NCBI GenBank assembly: GCA_001897995.1 | Contig: MKRV01000258.1 | Span: 1 to 64,000 of the forward strand | Direction of reading: 5' to 3' | DNA: 64,000 bases | Source of the DNA: Alphaproteobacteria bacterium 65-37 | Lineage (GTDB): Bacteria; Pseudomonadota; Alphaproteobacteria; Reyranellales; Reyranellaceae | In this document: positions 58,197-64,000 of the stretch, one piece after another | Layout: each line of letters opens with the position of its first letter | How positions within the stretch are numbered: position 1 is the first letter of the stretch | Program-made: the position numbers and the translations under genes | The notes under the pieces: generated by a model | Databases searched by the model: none | What the model was told of the DNA's origin: nothing | What the model saw: only the letters and a program-made list of their open reading frames with translations

Positions 58197-60821
58197 TCAG
58201 GGCGTGCCGGCTGCCGGCTGGGTCGCGGCCGCCTCCGGCAACACCACCGTGAAGCGCGCACCGCCATCCGGTTTGTTAGCGGCAGCGATAGACCCACCCA
58301 TTTCCTCGACGATGCGCTGGCAGACAGCGAGGCCGAGGCCGGTACCTTTGGCACGCGACTTGGTGGTGACGAACATCTCGAACAGGTGCGGCAGGATGTG
58401 CTGAGCAATGCCGGGGCCGTTGTCGTCGACGATGATGCGCACCGCCCGGCCCCGCGGCGTCATGATCGCGGCGGCGGTGACCGCGATCGCCATGTCGTTG
58501 CGATGCGCCTCGGGATCGCTTTCGGCGAGGGCATCACGCGCATTGTTGATCAGGTTGATCAGCACCTGCTCCAGCCGGCCGACATGCCCCATGACCAGCG
58601 GCAAAGGCTCGCCCTGTTCCAAGGTCAGCGTGATACGCGCATTGCGTACGGCCGCACCCGCGAGATCGACGCCAGCCGCAAGCGCCGCCCGCACGTCGAA
58701 GGGTGTCGGCTTTTCGGCAGCGGTGGACCGTGAGAAGGCACGCAGTTCGCCGGTGAGGCGGCTCATACGGTCGACCTGCTTCAGCACGCGCTCGAACCGG
58801 GTGGCCACCGGGCCCGGCTCGACCGTCCGGTGAGCGCGTTCGGCCGCTTCCAGATCCTCGAGCGCCGCCTCGGCCGCCAGCGTGATCACCTGCAAGGGCT
58901 GATTGACCTCGTGGATCACCGTCGCAGCGATGGCGCCGACACTCTTCAGGCGCTCGGCATCGAACAGGGCGCGTTCGGTCTCCCGGCGTACCGTATCGTC
59001 GACGCCGACGAACACGATCTGACGAACGAGCCCCTCGGCGTTCAGTACCGGCTTGGCAGTGACCTCGAACACGCGAACCCGGCCGTCGGCGTCGGGAACG
59101 GTAAGCGTGCCGCGCGCTGCGACCAGCGCCTCCTCGGTCCAAGAACGATCGAGCCAAGCCGCCAGGATGAACGGATCGACCGGCTGGGCGAAGACGGTGC
59201 GCAAGGAACGGCCGATCGCCTGGTCGGGCGAAAGGCCGCTGAAGGCCGCGAACTCGTGGTTCACCATCAGCATGTCGAGATTACTGTCGGTCAGCACCAC
59301 CAGCGCCGCGCTGGAATCGATGATCGACCGCAGGCGGGCGCGTTCCTGCTCCAACCGCCGAGAAAGCCTCACCTCGCTGTCGATGTCGCGCACTACGCCG
59401 CTCACGATCGCCGTGCCATCTTCGCGCACGTAGCGGCGGAAACGTGCCTCGGCGTGGCGCACGGCATCCTCGGCGTCGACGGCGGCGCGCAGAATGCGGA
59501 AGCGTATTTCGCGAACCCTGCCATCGTCGCTGCGCGGCTCGCCACGAAGAGCATCGCGCAGCCGTTCGTGGTCATCCGGATGGACGCGATCGAGCACGGC
59601 CGTTCCCATCAGCTCGGCAGCCGGCATCCCGAACAGATCGGCGGCAGCGGCACTTACGAAGATCAGCACACCCCGCACGACGTCGATCTCGAACACCATG
59701 TCGGCCATCGATTCGACGAGCCGCTGATAGTCCCGGCGGGCCCGATCACTCTGCAGCTGCAGCGTCTTGAGATGAGTAACATCGATGCGCAGGCCGACGG
59801 TACGGCCCGATGCCGTCCTCTTCTCCGACCATTCGTACCAGCGGCCGTTGGGCGCGATTTGGGTCTGCTGCATTTCCTTGGAACGGAAACGCTGAACCCA
59901 GGCCTGCACCGTCTCGTGCTGTTGTGCGGCGTCGCCGCCGCGGGACGCCGCTGCCCGCATCGCGAGCTCCGTATAGGTCAAGCCGATCGCGTCGGGCTGC
60001 GAAAGGCTCGGGCTCGCATCCCGAGCAGTGACGTTGAACAGGATCAGCCGCTCGTTGGTGTCATAGACGGTGAGGCCGGCCGGCAACGCTTCGACGGTCT
60101 CCGAAAGGAGGGCCTCGGCCTCGCGCGCCTGGGTATAGAGGGCATGACGTTCCAGCGCCGCACGGCCCACCAGCAGCAGCAGCACCGATCCTGCCACGAT
60201 GAAGCCCAGCGTACTGAGCGCCAGCGCGCCCAATGCCGTCTGGTAGCGGTCGATCACGCGGTCGATCACCCCTTCGAGGTCGCTGGCGACAATTGCCCCG
60301 GCACGGTTCAGCTCAGCGAAGGCCTGCAGCACCTGGCGCATCTCGTCATGGCCGAAGAGCGGCGGTTGTTCGGCCAGGATCGGCGTCAGGATGTCGGCGA
60401 GACGCTGCGCATCGGCGCAGACCGGTCCCCCTGGCAGCACGCACTTGCGCTCGACCTGCGCTTCAAAGCGCGTCCAGGCGGTGCGCAAGGTCGGCAAAGC
60501 ATGAACGGAATGACGACCGCCATCGGTATAGGCCTGCACGGCATAGACCAGCTCGCCACCGGCACGTGCGAGATCGAGGATTTCGGCCGACTTGCGTCGC
60601 GCCGCCACGGTCTCGTTCTGATGCAGGGCCAGCCAGAGATAGAGGAACGAGGCGAGGCAACAAACGAGGAACAGCGCCGCCGCGCCGGTCGCCCACGCGA
60701 CGCCCGGGGTACCCAGCGCCCGACGTACCAGCATCGGCAGCGAGCGCAGCAGGCCTGCAAACGACAGGGGCTGCGACCGCGATGCCGTCTCCGGAGAGGA
60801 ACTCGCTGCGGACATGTCCAA
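58197..60821 (-). CDS. PAS-domain sensor histidine kinase, hybrid-free
   Basis: Membrane sensor kinase of 874 residues. Two helices (about 43-66 and 196-220) enclose a periplasmic sensor of about 130 residues containing two Cys (CVLPGGPVCAD). Three PAS domains follow in the cytoplasm (about 235-345, 355-480 and 490-610). The transmitter has phospho-acceptor His637 in IHEVNQPLQVITLAAEAAL, the N-box LINLINNARDAL, DDNGPGIAQHILPHLFEMF and TTKSRAKGTGLGLAVCQRIV. No response regulator adjoins it. The similar HEVNQPL box places it with FixL/DctB-type kinases; signal and target are unknown. Confidence 0.93.
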   Translation of the reverse strand: MDMSAASSSPETASRSQPLSFAGLLRSLPMLVRRALGTPGVAWATGAAALFLVCCLASFLYLWLALHQNETVAARRKSAEILDLARAGGELVYAVQAYTDGGRHSVHALPTLRTAWTRFEAQVERKCVLPGGPVCADAQRLADILTPILAEQPPLFGHDEMRQVLQAFAELNRAGAIVASDLEGVIDRVIDRYQTALGALALSTLGFIVAGSVLLLLVGRAALERHALYTQAREAEALLSETVEALPAGLTVYDTNERLILFNVTARDASPSLSQPDAIGLTYTELAMRAAASRGGDAAQQHETVQAWVQRFRSKEMQQTQIAPNGRWYEWSEKRTASGRTVGLRIDVTHLKTLQLQSDRARRDYQRLVESMADMVFEIDVVRGVLIFVSAAAADLFGMPAAELMGTAVLDRVHPDDHERLRDALRGEPRSDDGRVREIRFRILRAAVDAEDAVRHAEARFRRYVREDGTAIVSGVVRDIDSEVRLSRRLEQERARLRSIIDSSAALVVLTDSNLDMLMVNHEFAAFSGLSPDQAIGRSLRTVFAQPVDPFILAAWLDRSWTEEALVAARGTLTVPDADGRVRVFEVTAKPVLNAEGLVRQIVFVGVDDTVRRETERALFDAERLKSVGAIAATVIHEVNQPLQVITLAAEAALEDLEAAERAHRTVEPGPVATRFERVLKQVDRMSRLTGELRAFSRSTAAEKPTPFDVRAALAAGVDLAGAAVRNARITLTLEQGEPLPLVMGHVGRLEQVLINLINNARDALAESDPEAHRNDMAIAVTAAAIMTPRGRAVRIIVDDNGPGIAQHILPHLFEMFVTTKSRAKGTGLGLAVCQRIVEEMGGSIAAANKPDGGARFTVVLPEAAATQPAAGTP

Positions 60822-60936
60822 GCCGCCTTCTTACATCACGACGCCGGTGCCGGTCGCTGCAATGCAGCGGCCACGCCGGACAAAGTGATGTGCAGCGGAA
60901 TATTGCGGGCGCTGCGCGAGATTATCGACCTTGGTC

Positions 60937-61308
60937 TTATGCCGGTACGCTTTCGATCCAGCGTCGTGCCTTGTCGAGGTCGTCGAAGATCCGCATCGAG
61001 CGGTCGGCCGAGGCGAGAACACCGAGCGCCCGCGAAACCCGTTCGGCCTGGGCGTCGGTCACCACCAGCGCCAACGCCCCGACCGGGCCACGCTGGTGAT
61101 AGCCGCGGAACAGCACGCTGACGGCCAGCATGTCGTCCTGCCCCATGGCCGGCCGGCCGTGGCGGGCATCGAACAGCTTGCGCCACGCCACGGCGCCGCC
61201 CCCGTCGACGGCCCTGAGGTAGGCCTCGAGATCGGTTCGTGTGAAATCGCCCTCGGCCGTGACGGCGACCAGCCGCGTGCGCGAGTCGATGATCCAGTGA
61301 AGCGGCAT
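60937..61308 (-). CDS. Conserved small protein, SpoIIAA/STAS-like
   Basis: Protein of 123 residues. The pattern LHWIIDSRTRLVAVTAEGDF, then TRTDLEAYLRAV and WRKLFDARHGRPAMGQDDML, resembles the SpoIIAA-like/STAS-related fold found near sensor kinases in Alphaproteobacteria. No catalytic residues can be assigned. It is encoded just upstream of the large PAS kinase on the same strand (115 bases, no other gene between), suggesting a shared role in stress signalling. Confidence 0.75.
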   Translation of the reverse strand: MPLHWIIDSRTRLVAVTAEGDFTRTDLEAYLRAVDGGGAVAWRKLFDARHGRPAMGQDDMLAVSVLFRGYHQRGPVGALALVVTDAQAERVSRALGVLASADRSMRIFDDLDKARRWIESVPA

Positions 61309-61354
61309 CCCTGTCTTGGTCTTTCCGTCGAGCTCTCGCGTTCCGTCACGATGT

Positions 61355-61945
61355 CTATTTCGATGCCCGCTTCGTCTTCGTCGCCGGCACCCAGCGCACC
61401 ACGCCGTTCTCCAGACACTCGTTCATGAACTGCACCGTCTGCTGGATACCACGCGCAAAGGCTTCCTGTTTCTGCTGGCGCTGCACGATACCCGGCTTGG
61501 TAACGTAGTGGGCGCGTCCTTTCTCGACGATTTCCCCGAGCTCCAGCAGCCGCTTCAGCTTGCGGCGTACGGTCTCGCGGGGAATGCCCGACGTACTGGC
61601 GATCGACGTAGCGTTGACGGCGCGCTGTCCCTCGATGCCGATCACGCTCTCGAAAGTGTGGTGCTTGGCGCGAAAGGCGGCGTCGCGCATGCCGGGCTCG
61701 ATCGCCGCCGTACCGATGATTTCAGACACCAGGGCGAGGTCGAGATCGCCGCCGTAGAGCCCACGGCGTTCCCGTTCGATGCGGTGCAGATAGTTGCCGA
61801 TCAGCAGGATGAAGAGCCGAGAGACGGCGGAGTTGTCGGCAAGAACTATTCGGCCCTCGGGAGCAATCGCTGTCGCGCGCCGGCGGGGCATGGGGGTCTC
61901 CTCGCCGGCCTTTTGTGGGACGGCTCGTTGGGAACGCCTCACCAT
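61355..61945 (-). CDS. Winged-helix transcriptional regulator
   Basis: Protein of 196 residues. The C-terminal half holds a winged helix (NATSIASTSGIPRETVRRKL with KRLLELGEIVEKGRAHYV), while the N-terminal half (ADNSAVSRLFILLIGNYLHR onward) is helical and of no known effector class. Starts at 61945 (AAGGAGAA) and 61891 (GAGGAG) are both plausible. It is divergent from the autotransporter gene across 127 bases that contain two palindromes, so it is a candidate regulator of that gene. Confidence 0.8.
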   Translation of the reverse strand: MVRRSQRAVPQKAGEETPMPRRRATAIAPEGRIVLADNSAVSRLFILLIGNYLHRIERERRGLYGGDLDLALVSEIIGTAAIEPGMRDAAFRAKHHTFESVIGIEGQRAVNATSIASTSGIPRETVRRKLKRLLELGEIVEKGRAHYVTKPGIVQRQQKQEAFARGIQQTVQFMNECLENGVVRWVPATKTKRASK

Positions 61946-62051: not shown

Positions 62052-62063
62052 CAAGTATACTTG
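62052..62063. promoter_or_regulatory. 12-bp perfect palindrome upstream of the autotransporter gene
   Basis: CAAGTATACTTG is 9 bases before the ATG at 62073. TATACT (62056-62061) within it is a good -10 box, so a bound protein would block initiation. It shares the GTATAC core with the operator at 17981-17990. Confidence 0.45.
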
Positions 62064-62072
62064 GCGGGATCA

Positions 62073-64000
62073 ATGAGAGTTGCGTCTGCAAGGGCATCAC
62101 GAAAGGCAGTGCGCCGGGCGACCGGTGCCTTCTTGGGGTTCGCGGTGGCCGCTTTGCACGTCCCCGCCAGCGCCGAGACCTCGTCGCCGGCGGGGACGAC
62201 AGGTCTCTACGGCAATGCGCCGAGCATCGACCTGCAATACGTGAAGGGCGCCCTCAATCAGGCCGGCAAGGACTCGCCTGGTGCCGTTCTCAACCTGCAG
62301 GTCGGGAGCGGCGGCACGTCCGGCCAGTATTCCCAGTTCATCATGGATACCGGCTCGACCGGCATCGCCGTCTCGTCCGACTACTTCAAGCCCGGGCCCA
62401 ACGACAAGGTCGTAGGACAGGGCACCTCGACCTACACCAGCAGCGGCGTGGTGATCCACGGCACGTTCTACGAGACCACGGTCGTCCTGCGCGACGGTGA
62501 CGGCAAGGCGGTCGGCACCACGCCGGTAAAGGTTCTGCTGGCAGAACGTATCACCTGCGACTTCACGACGGCCGGCTGCAAGGCAACGGACCAACCCTCG
62601 GGAGTGAAGTACGCCGGCGTCGGTTACAACCGCAACAACATCGCCGGCACGTCGATCAACGGCATGAACCCGTTGGTGAACGTCAAGACGACGGCCGGCC
62701 AGCAGCTCCAGCCAGGCTACATCGTCGGCAATGACGGCGTCACCGTCGGGCTGTCGCAGGAAGCGACCAAGGGTTTCTCCCTGGTGAAGCTCACGCAGGA
62801 CCTCACGACGTCGGTTCCCGGTGCGCCGCAGTGGAACCAAACCAGCATGACCGTGCGGGCCGGCGGCGCCACCGGCTCCGGCAGCGTCCTGCTGGATGCC
62901 GGCATCGGCTACATGTTTCTGTCGCCGCCGCCCGGCAGCAGCCTCGACAAGGTGCCGGGCCGGACGCCGGCGCCCGACGGAACGCTGGTCGAAATCTGGC
63001 TGCCTGGGCAGAACAGCGCGGGCGCTTCGTACTGGTTCAAAGCCCGGAACACGGGCGAGACGAACTGCCCGCCCGACGCTGCCAATTCGCTCAATCCCTG
63101 CAACGTCACGGTGGTGCACGATCCCACCGGTACGTACGTCAACACCGGCCGCGAGTTCTTCTCGGCATTCGAATATCTCTACGATCCGGTGAACGGCTAT
63201 CTCGGCTACCGTTTGGCCGATAACGGCTTCAGCAACACCGGCAGCATCACGCCCGTCCTCGCCCTGCAGGGGCCCGTGCCGCTGCCCGGCGGCTTCCAGT
63301 CCACCTTGCCGGTCGCCCTGCTGCAGGCGACGACGCTGATCTCCACGGCCGGCGGCGCCACGTTCGTCGCCGCGGTGAACGGCTTCGGCAACAACCTCAC
63401 GCTTCAGGGCCCCGGGCTGGTCGCTTTCAACGGCGCCGTCGATCTCGGCGGCGGCACCTTCGCCGTCCAGCAGGGCACGGCCCAGATCAACGGATCGCTG
63501 GCAGCCACGACCATCACGGTCGGCCCGCAAGGGACGCTGACTGGCAATGGTCCCGTTGTCGGTGACGTGATCCATGGCGGCACGCTGGCGCCCGGCAATT
63601 CGATCGGCACCCTGAACATCAGGGGCAGCTTCACGCAAACCGCCGGCAGCACCTATCAGGTCGAGGTCAACAACCAGGGCCAGAGCGACCAGGTCGTGGT
63701 CACCGGCAAGGCGACCCTGCAGGGCGGCACGGTGACTTTCGTACCGCTTTCCAACAATTTCGCCGCCCAGCAGACCTACGCCATCCTGACCGCGGCCGGC
63801 GGCGTGACGGGCAGCTACGCGGGCGTGCAGAGCAACTACGCCTTCCTGTTTCCGTCCCTCGCCTACGACACCAACAACGTGTACCTGAACGTGGCGCGCA
63901 GCTTCGCGCGCGGCGGCCAGACCCCCAACCAGGCGGCCGTCGGCGCCGCCCTGGATGCCGGCGCGTCGGGCGCGAGCGCCGGCCTGGCGTCGACGCTCTC
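62073..64000 (+). CDS. Autotransporter with N-terminal pepsin-like aspartic protease domain (3' end outside window)
   Basis: The visible 642 residues begin with a long Sec signal (basic RASRKAVRRATG, hydrophobic AFLGFAVAALHV, cleavage after ASA near 34). Residues about 60-385 look like a bilobed A1 aspartic protease. It has FIMDTGSTGIAV (Asp92), a flap-like STYTSSGVVIHGTFYETTVV, a second site SVLLDAGIGYMFL (Asp275, D-A-G instead of D-T-G) and the pepsin-like C-terminal pattern FFSAFEYLYDPVNGYLGYR. Residues about 430-600 are autotransporter beta-strand repeats (GTLTGNGPVVGDV, GGTLAPGNSIGTLNIRGSF), ending in the pre-barrel linker GQTPNQAAVGAALDAG. The frame is open at the edge; a beta-barrel should follow. 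Confidence 0.85.
   Translation, partial: MRVASARASRKAVRRATGAFLGFAVAALHVPASAETSSPAGTTGLYGNAPSIDLQYVKGALNQAGKDSPGAVLNLQVGSGGTSGQYSQFIMDTGSTGIAVSSDYFKPGPNDKVVGQGTSTYTSSGVVIHGTFYETTVVLRDGDGKAVGTTPVKVLLAERITCDFTTAGCKATDQPSGVKYAGVGYNRNNIAGTSINGMNPLVNVKTTAGQQLQPGYIVGNDGVTVGLSQEATKGFSLVKLTQDLTTSVPGAPQWNQTSMTVRAGGATGSGSVLLDAGIGYMFLSPPPGSSLDKVPGRTPAPDGTLVEIWLPGQNSAGASYWFKARNTGETNCPPDAANSLNPCNVTVVHDPTGTYVNTGREFFSAFEYLYDPVNGYLGYRLADNGFSNTGSITPVLALQGPVPLPGGFQSTLPVALLQATTLISTAGGATFVAAVNGFGNNLTLQGPGLVAFNGAVDLGGGTFAVQQGTAQINGSLAATTITVGPQGTLTGNGPVVGDVIHGGTLAPGNSIGTLNIRGSFTQTAGSTYQVEVNNQGQSDQVVVTGKATLQGGTVTFVPLSNNFAAQQTYAILTAAGGVTGSYAGVQSNYAFLFPSLAYDTNNVYLNVARSFARGGQTPNQAAVGAALDAGASGASAGLASTL

Follow-up and report, generated by a model that had tools for sequence, protein, structure and literature searches.

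The gene at the end of the analysed stretch of DNA (the window, 64,000 nucleotides, contig positions 1-64000 of a 7.1-Mb genome) probably encodes a type Va autotransporter that carries a bilobed pepsin-fold aspartic protease as its passenger. By computation, we found a complete autotransporter architecture, a pepsin fold, an invariant catalytic pair, and purifying selection. The passenger is most likely an active surface aspartic protease; we infer this activity from the invariance of the catalytic pair in both exported forms of the family, from the purifying selection, and from the active relative PecA. The host is a Reyranella species, a bacterium of soil and freshwater.

Architecture of the protein and fold of the passenger

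The open reading frame extends from contig position 62073 to 65057 on the + strand and encodes 994 aa, and the window ends inside it at 64000. Read past this point, the frame stays open to 65057, with the stop codon at 65055-65057. The start codon is the ATG at 62073; a TTG in frame at 62061 could serve instead. The sequence and a full-length model gave the type Va order of Sec signal peptide, passenger, stalk, and helical linker, and the PF03797 barrel follows downstream of 64000, where the original prediction had proposed to look for it. The protein is therefore confirmed as a complete type Va autotransporter with a Sec signal, an N-terminal domain of ~350 aa, a beta-helical stalk, a helical linker, and a barrel (Table 1). 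The signal peptide was called by eye and by comparison with homologues, which have A-x-A followed by Q at the same cut site (A in 59/71, Q or E in 64/71).

Table 1. Coordinates of the autotransporter features and of the divergent neighbouring gene (residues numbered from the ATG start; conservation among 71 homologous domains).
Feature	Position	Strand	Evidence or conservation
Divergent syntenic neighbour, weak helix-turn-helix match	61355..61945	-	beside autotransporter in two further Reyranella genomes, 78% identical
Signal peptide, residues 1-34	62073..62174	+	predicted cut between ASA and E
Pepsin-like aspartic protease domain (passenger), residues 35-385	62175..63227	+	AlphaFold2 fold matches, conserved catalytic motifs
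N-lobe active-site motif D92-T-G-S	62346..62357	+	D, T, G 71/71; S95 70/71
Putative flap tyrosine Y121 (pepsin Tyr75 position)	62433..62435	+	Tyr 65/71; hairpin tip in model
Cys162 and Cys169, likely disulfide	62556..62579	+	both 43/71, neither 25/71, single 3/71
C-lobe active-site motif D275-A-G	62895..62903	+	D, G 71/71
Cys332 and Cys343, likely disulfide	63066..63101	+	both 16/71, neither 55/71, single 0/71
N357-T-G-R psi-loop and C-terminal F-x-Y-L-Y-D-P-V-N-G-x-L-G-Y strands, as at pepsin ends	63141..63206	+	
Beta-helical stalk, residues 396-609	63258..63899	+	full-length model, pLDDT mostly >85
Helical linker, residues 611-687 (model helices 577-653)	63903..64133, past window edge	+	full-length model
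PF03797 beta-barrel	contig 64221-64994	+	PF03797 E 4.5e-54 (genome), 6e-53 (protein)

The PF03797 alignment covers residues 721-978 of the TTG-start protein and the full profile (1-255). No other Pfam family matched the whole protein, even at E 10, which leaves the passenger without a direct match. Among the NCBIfam models, TIGR01414 matched stalk and barrel (511-998, TTG numbering), and NF051851 (EprS) gave a partial match below its cut-off (436-998, TTG numbering) that extended over stalk and barrel and left the protease domain uncovered. The stalk carries the LAPGNSIGTL region that is common to other autotransporters. The strands behind the passenger had originally been taken for PATR repeats, but this assignment was not borne out, as PF12951 did not match the query even at E 10, although it is present in some relatives (strong in L077 and L079, barely over the cut-off in L140).

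The full-length model (mean pLDDT 81) contains the N-terminal domain, the beta-helical stalk, the helical linker, and the barrel. With this model, Foldseek retrieved autotransporters (EstA 5.8e-16, also AaaA, NalP, Ssp, EspP, and BrkA) and, in the same search, pepsin-type proteases (plasmepsin II 3.9e-10, also chymosin, renin, and pepsin). The AlphaFold2 model of the passenger domain (pLDDT 89, pTM 0.89) has the bilobed pepsin fold for which the original prediction had proposed to look, and the best 50 Foldseek matches of this domain in the PDB were all pepsin-type proteases. In the VIA comparison, in which rows differing by less than 1 in Z count as tied, the domain matched P. vivax plasmepsin with Z 19.7 (rmsd 3.6 A, 269 residues) and 4ehc, the PE_PGRS16 domain, with Z 18.7 (rmsd 3.1 A, 254 residues). 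D92 lies at a strand end ahead of a turn and the next strand (between model strands E58-63 and E67-71), and Y121 is at the tip of a beta-hairpin (model strands 83-92 and 97-111), which is the placement of the active Asp and the flap Tyr of pepsin. Fold model, invariant Asp motifs, and barrel together support the view that a pepsin-type domain is the passenger of this autotransporter.

Catalytic residues, selection, and the question of activity

Conservation was assessed in an alignment of 71 homologous domains, which share 30-70% of their residues with the query. D92, T93, G94, D275, G277, and D371 are invariant in this set, and D92, D275, and D371 are the only invariant ones among the 26 acidic residues of the query domain. 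A wider set of 111 distinct domains gave the same picture, with D92 in 107/107 and D275 in 110/110 of the rows having a letter there. As in the bilobed peptidases of clan AA, each lobe of the domain contributes one catalytic Asp, set in a conserved D-x-G motif. D-[TS]-G is found in lobe 1 of the query but not in lobe 2, which has DAG; 56/71 relatives have D[TS]G at this position, and the residue following D275 is Thr in 35/71, Ser in 21/71, and Ala in 15/71 (Ala276 in the query). The hydrophobic-Gly psi-loop motifs G182-V-G184 and N357-T-G359 and the C-terminal Y-L-Y-D-x-x-x-G-x-x-G are kept in the family, N357 being invariant. A chance origin of the motifs is ruled out by their conservation in the 71 domains.

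The residues on which the original prediction had been based (Asp92-T-G-S-T, Asp275-A-G, Cys162/169/332/343, and FFSAFEYLYDPVNGYLGYR) were all confirmed. Its comparison of the C-terminal pattern with the end of pepsins gained weight, as Y368, D371, G375, and G378 are invariant in 71/71. The two Asp of the query are indeed 183 residues apart, as had been pointed out, but this spacing varies from 163 to 223 in the family, and we therefore regard it as coincidental and do not use it as evidence. The proposal of two disulfides agrees with the co-occurrence of the Cys pairs across the 71 domains: their paired presence or absence likely reflects two disulfides that would close short loops of 7 and 11 residues. 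In general, autotransport tolerates short disulfide loops. The caution about Ala in place of Thr in the second motif was fair, and Ala276 at the position of the second-motif Thr/Ser ('fireman's grip') may lower activity.

The passenger is under constraint, with dN ~0.22 and dS ~0.7 between species, and each of the three parts (passenger, stalk, barrel) has an interspecies dN/dS clearly under 1. Secretion, activity, substrates, and the release or retention of the passenger are aspects that we infer, and the following route is proposed. The precursor would be exported by Sec and its signal peptide cut after Ala34. The C-terminal barrel would then insert into the outer membrane and the passenger cross to the surface, where the beta-helical stalk would fold and the protease domain, held by the two short disulfide loops, would fold at the outer end of the stalk. 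In the cleft, Asp92 and Asp275 would lie opposite one another and activate a water molecule, and peptides of surface or environmental proteins would be cut, possibly including the own stalk or sister autotransporters, as with PecA in mycobacteria.

Three other readings have to be weighed against an active surface protease. As most relatives have Thr or Ser where the query has Ala276, a weakened enzyme or a binding module is possible, and in its stronger form this reading says that the pepsin fold is kept in a pseudo-protease that serves as a surface binding module or an inactive regulator. All of the 15/71 members with Ala at this position belong to the long, autotransporter-type class, and four of these 15 have also replaced the flap Tyr, which would fit such a loss. 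However, none of the 15 Ala members has lost either Asp, the first Thr, or either Gly, the query and its two orthologues have retained the flap Tyr, and a catalytic pair kept in 71/71 at 30-45% identity is unexpected of a binding module, so we consider a pseudo-protease rather unlikely. An ordinary autotransporter adhesin, with DTG and DAG arising by chance and a passenger that is beta-helical throughout, would agree with the absence of any Pfam match in the query passenger, but is extremely improbable; this reading is refuted by the confident pepsin-fold model, the invariant motifs, the PDB profile match, and the free-standing paralogues that end 1-6 residues past the domain.

A further alternative keeps the activity but narrows the target: the protein could be a dedicated processing enzyme that mainly cuts itself and sister autotransporters from the surface, like PecA and the serine-type NalP/SphB1, rather than digesting outside protein. 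PecA, a protease of the related mycobacterial type, cuts itself as well as further surface proteins, at least seven other PF03797 matches occur in the own genome, and several genomes have two such autotransporters in tandem. We regard this alternative as a real but not the expected possibility, since a broader role is suggested by the exported paralogues that lack a barrel. Our preferred reading remains an active surface aspartic protease.

Distribution, evolution, and gene neighbourhood

A search of the genomes of the order detected relatives in 43/76, all within the own genus, and matches were obtained in 9/385 genomes of a class-wide and 6/398 genomes of a phylum-wide sample. The 111 distinct domains comprise 60 in short proteins, nearly all of which terminate 1-6 residues past the domain, 36 in proteins with a barrel, 10 that are truncated at the end of their locus, and 5 in long proteins without a barrel match. 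Judged by these sequences, the family has expanded in Reyranella both as autotransporters and as exported enzymes that lack a barrel. The barrel-less form is also the one that most other alphaproteobacterial relatives have, and one lineage has the autotransporter as well. In a quick tree, the labels for the two forms need three changes. The main short clade of Reyranella, with 35 members, is nested in autotransporter lineages, autotransporters also occur in two Rhodospirillales MAGs (L152, L155) outside the other groups, and the Rhizobiales-type relatives are of the short form. Barrel loss is the probable direction in Reyranella as far as can be judged from this unrooted tree.

Several individual cases deserve mention. 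The genome of the window encodes a second, barrel-less member (L047, G000:C283:18959-20083), which is 37% identical and ends 2 residues past the domain. It also contains two adjoining PF03797 autotransporter matches at G000:C113:10758-14795 (L002, L004), one of them with a TAG in the barrel stretch. Tandem pepsin-like autotransporters on the same strand are found in several Reyranella genomes and in Enhydrobacter aerosaccus ATCC 27094 (L042, L051, L053, L057, L063, L069). The latter strain (L101, NZ_FUWJ01000002.1) clusters with the genus of the window in the genome set, which points to a Reyranella-like organism behind the name. A strong relative (L176, G719:C1:1006940-1008019; E 1.1e-93) is present outside the class, in a 2.1-Mb genome from elsewhere in the phylum, and its matched stretch contains one TAG in frame; horizontal transfer is possible in this case. 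A copy on a Xanthomonas sacchari plasmid is annotated as 'hypothetical protein'.

Three Reyranella genomes retain the autotransporter gene together with its neighbours. Upstream are a divergent regulator-like gene, a gene for an SpoIIAA-like protein, and a gene for a PAS histidine kinase, and downstream are genes for a small conserved protein and for cytochrome c maturation. In the window, the three upstream genes occupy 58197-61945 on the minus strand, in kept synteny, and may form a signalling unit that controls the autotransporter. The divergent gene itself gave only sub-threshold matches in Pfam.

Relation to known proteases and autotransporters

Searches with the single sequence were of little help. 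The query protein matched none of PF00026, PF13650, and PF20729 (PF00026 not even at E 10), phmmer against the PDB gave chance matches only, and a pattern-based search of genome and viral contigs with the single protein gave nothing, so that the family profile was required. Searching the own genome with PF00026 gave no match, but its controls gave none either, so this result is not informative by itself. With the family profile, the sole significant match among all PDB sequences was 4ehc (PE_PGRS16, E 9.8e-6), in an alignment that runs through DTGS and also aligns the second Asp of 4ehc. Among the 71 family members, Pfam detected PF13650 (Asp_protease_2) weakly in 40/71 and PF20729 (PE-PGRS_C) in 19/71 (best E 8e-7), and PF00026 was absent from the families listed. 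The more distant relative L159 from Oryzicola mucosus exceeded the PF13650 cut-off (25.3 versus 24.3 bits) and, as the best of the relatives tested, came close to but stayed below that of PF20729 (32.1 versus 33 bits). The HMM support that had been proposed as a check was thus found in relatives and in the profile, but not in the query. As the query has no PF00026 or PF20729 match, we call it a member of a pepsin-fold aspartic protease family near PE-PGRS_C and not a formal member of either.

The original prediction had held an aspartic autotransporter protease to be unusual, in agreement with two surveys. The peptidase passengers given in a 2018 survey of autotransporters are of the serine (S1, S6, S8/S53), cysteine (C1), and metallo (M10, M28) types (PMC5767081), a 2012 survey names serine proteases (PMC3419190), and the words aspartic, aspartyl, and pepsin are absent from both. 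In the open-access literature, with subscription papers outside this scope, we found no report of an aspartic-protease or pepsin-like autotransporter. We lean towards the view that these proteins are an uncatalogued class of aspartic-protease autotransporters, in which an active pepsin-like enzyme uses type V secretion, and which radiated in Reyranella, is shared with a second alphaproteobacterial lineage, has barrel-losing descendants that are free exported enzymes, and is related in sequence to mycobacterial type VII-secreted proteases. An exported, disulfide-containing bacterial pepsin family would mean that extracellular bacterial pepsins are broader than thought, and its members would be tractable models for the folding of a bilobed enzyme after outer-membrane crossing and for the function of a pepsin-like enzyme without a long prosegment.

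With regard to overall design, the protein resembles the subtilisin-type EprS/Ssp and the trypsin-type SPATEs such as EspP, with which it shares an N-terminal enzyme, a beta-helical stalk, and a PF03797 barrel, but the catalytic domain of these is a serine protease and that of the query an aspartic one. Rickettsia APRc and similar proteins are likewise alphaproteobacterial aspartic proteases, and APRc was once proposed to process autotransporters, but it is of the single-lobe retropepsin type and itself no autotransporter passenger. Pepsin family A1 (PF00026, including the cytoplasmic bacterial shewasins) has in common with the passenger the fold, the two catalytic Asp motifs, the psi-loops, the position of the flap Tyr, and the C-terminal strands; the query differs in lacking a PF00026 match and in its second motif, DAG. 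The signal peptide is followed by only ~20 residues before the alignment with mature pepsins begins, which leaves no room for the usual prosegment. The bacterial A1 homologues described earlier are cytoplasmic and without signal peptides (PMC2761423), and PecA of mycobacteria is the surface exception (PMC6819658).

The closest counterpart is the C-terminal domain of PE_PGRS16 and PecA (PF20729, 4ehc), which shares the bilobed pepsin fold, the pair of DTG and D[TS]G, and export to the cell surface; 4ehc is among the best structural matches in VIA and has the lowest rmsd listed there. PecA is an active surface protease that requires its DTG Asp and cleaves itself as well as other surface proteins, and PE_PGRS16 had no activity in the study that solved its structure, according to the same source (PMC6819658). 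The mycobacterial domains follow a PE/PGRS part and leave the cell through type VII secretion, whereas the query passenger belongs to a type Va autotransporter. If the proposed class is real, two unrelated secretion systems have each adopted the same kind of exported bacterial pepsin.
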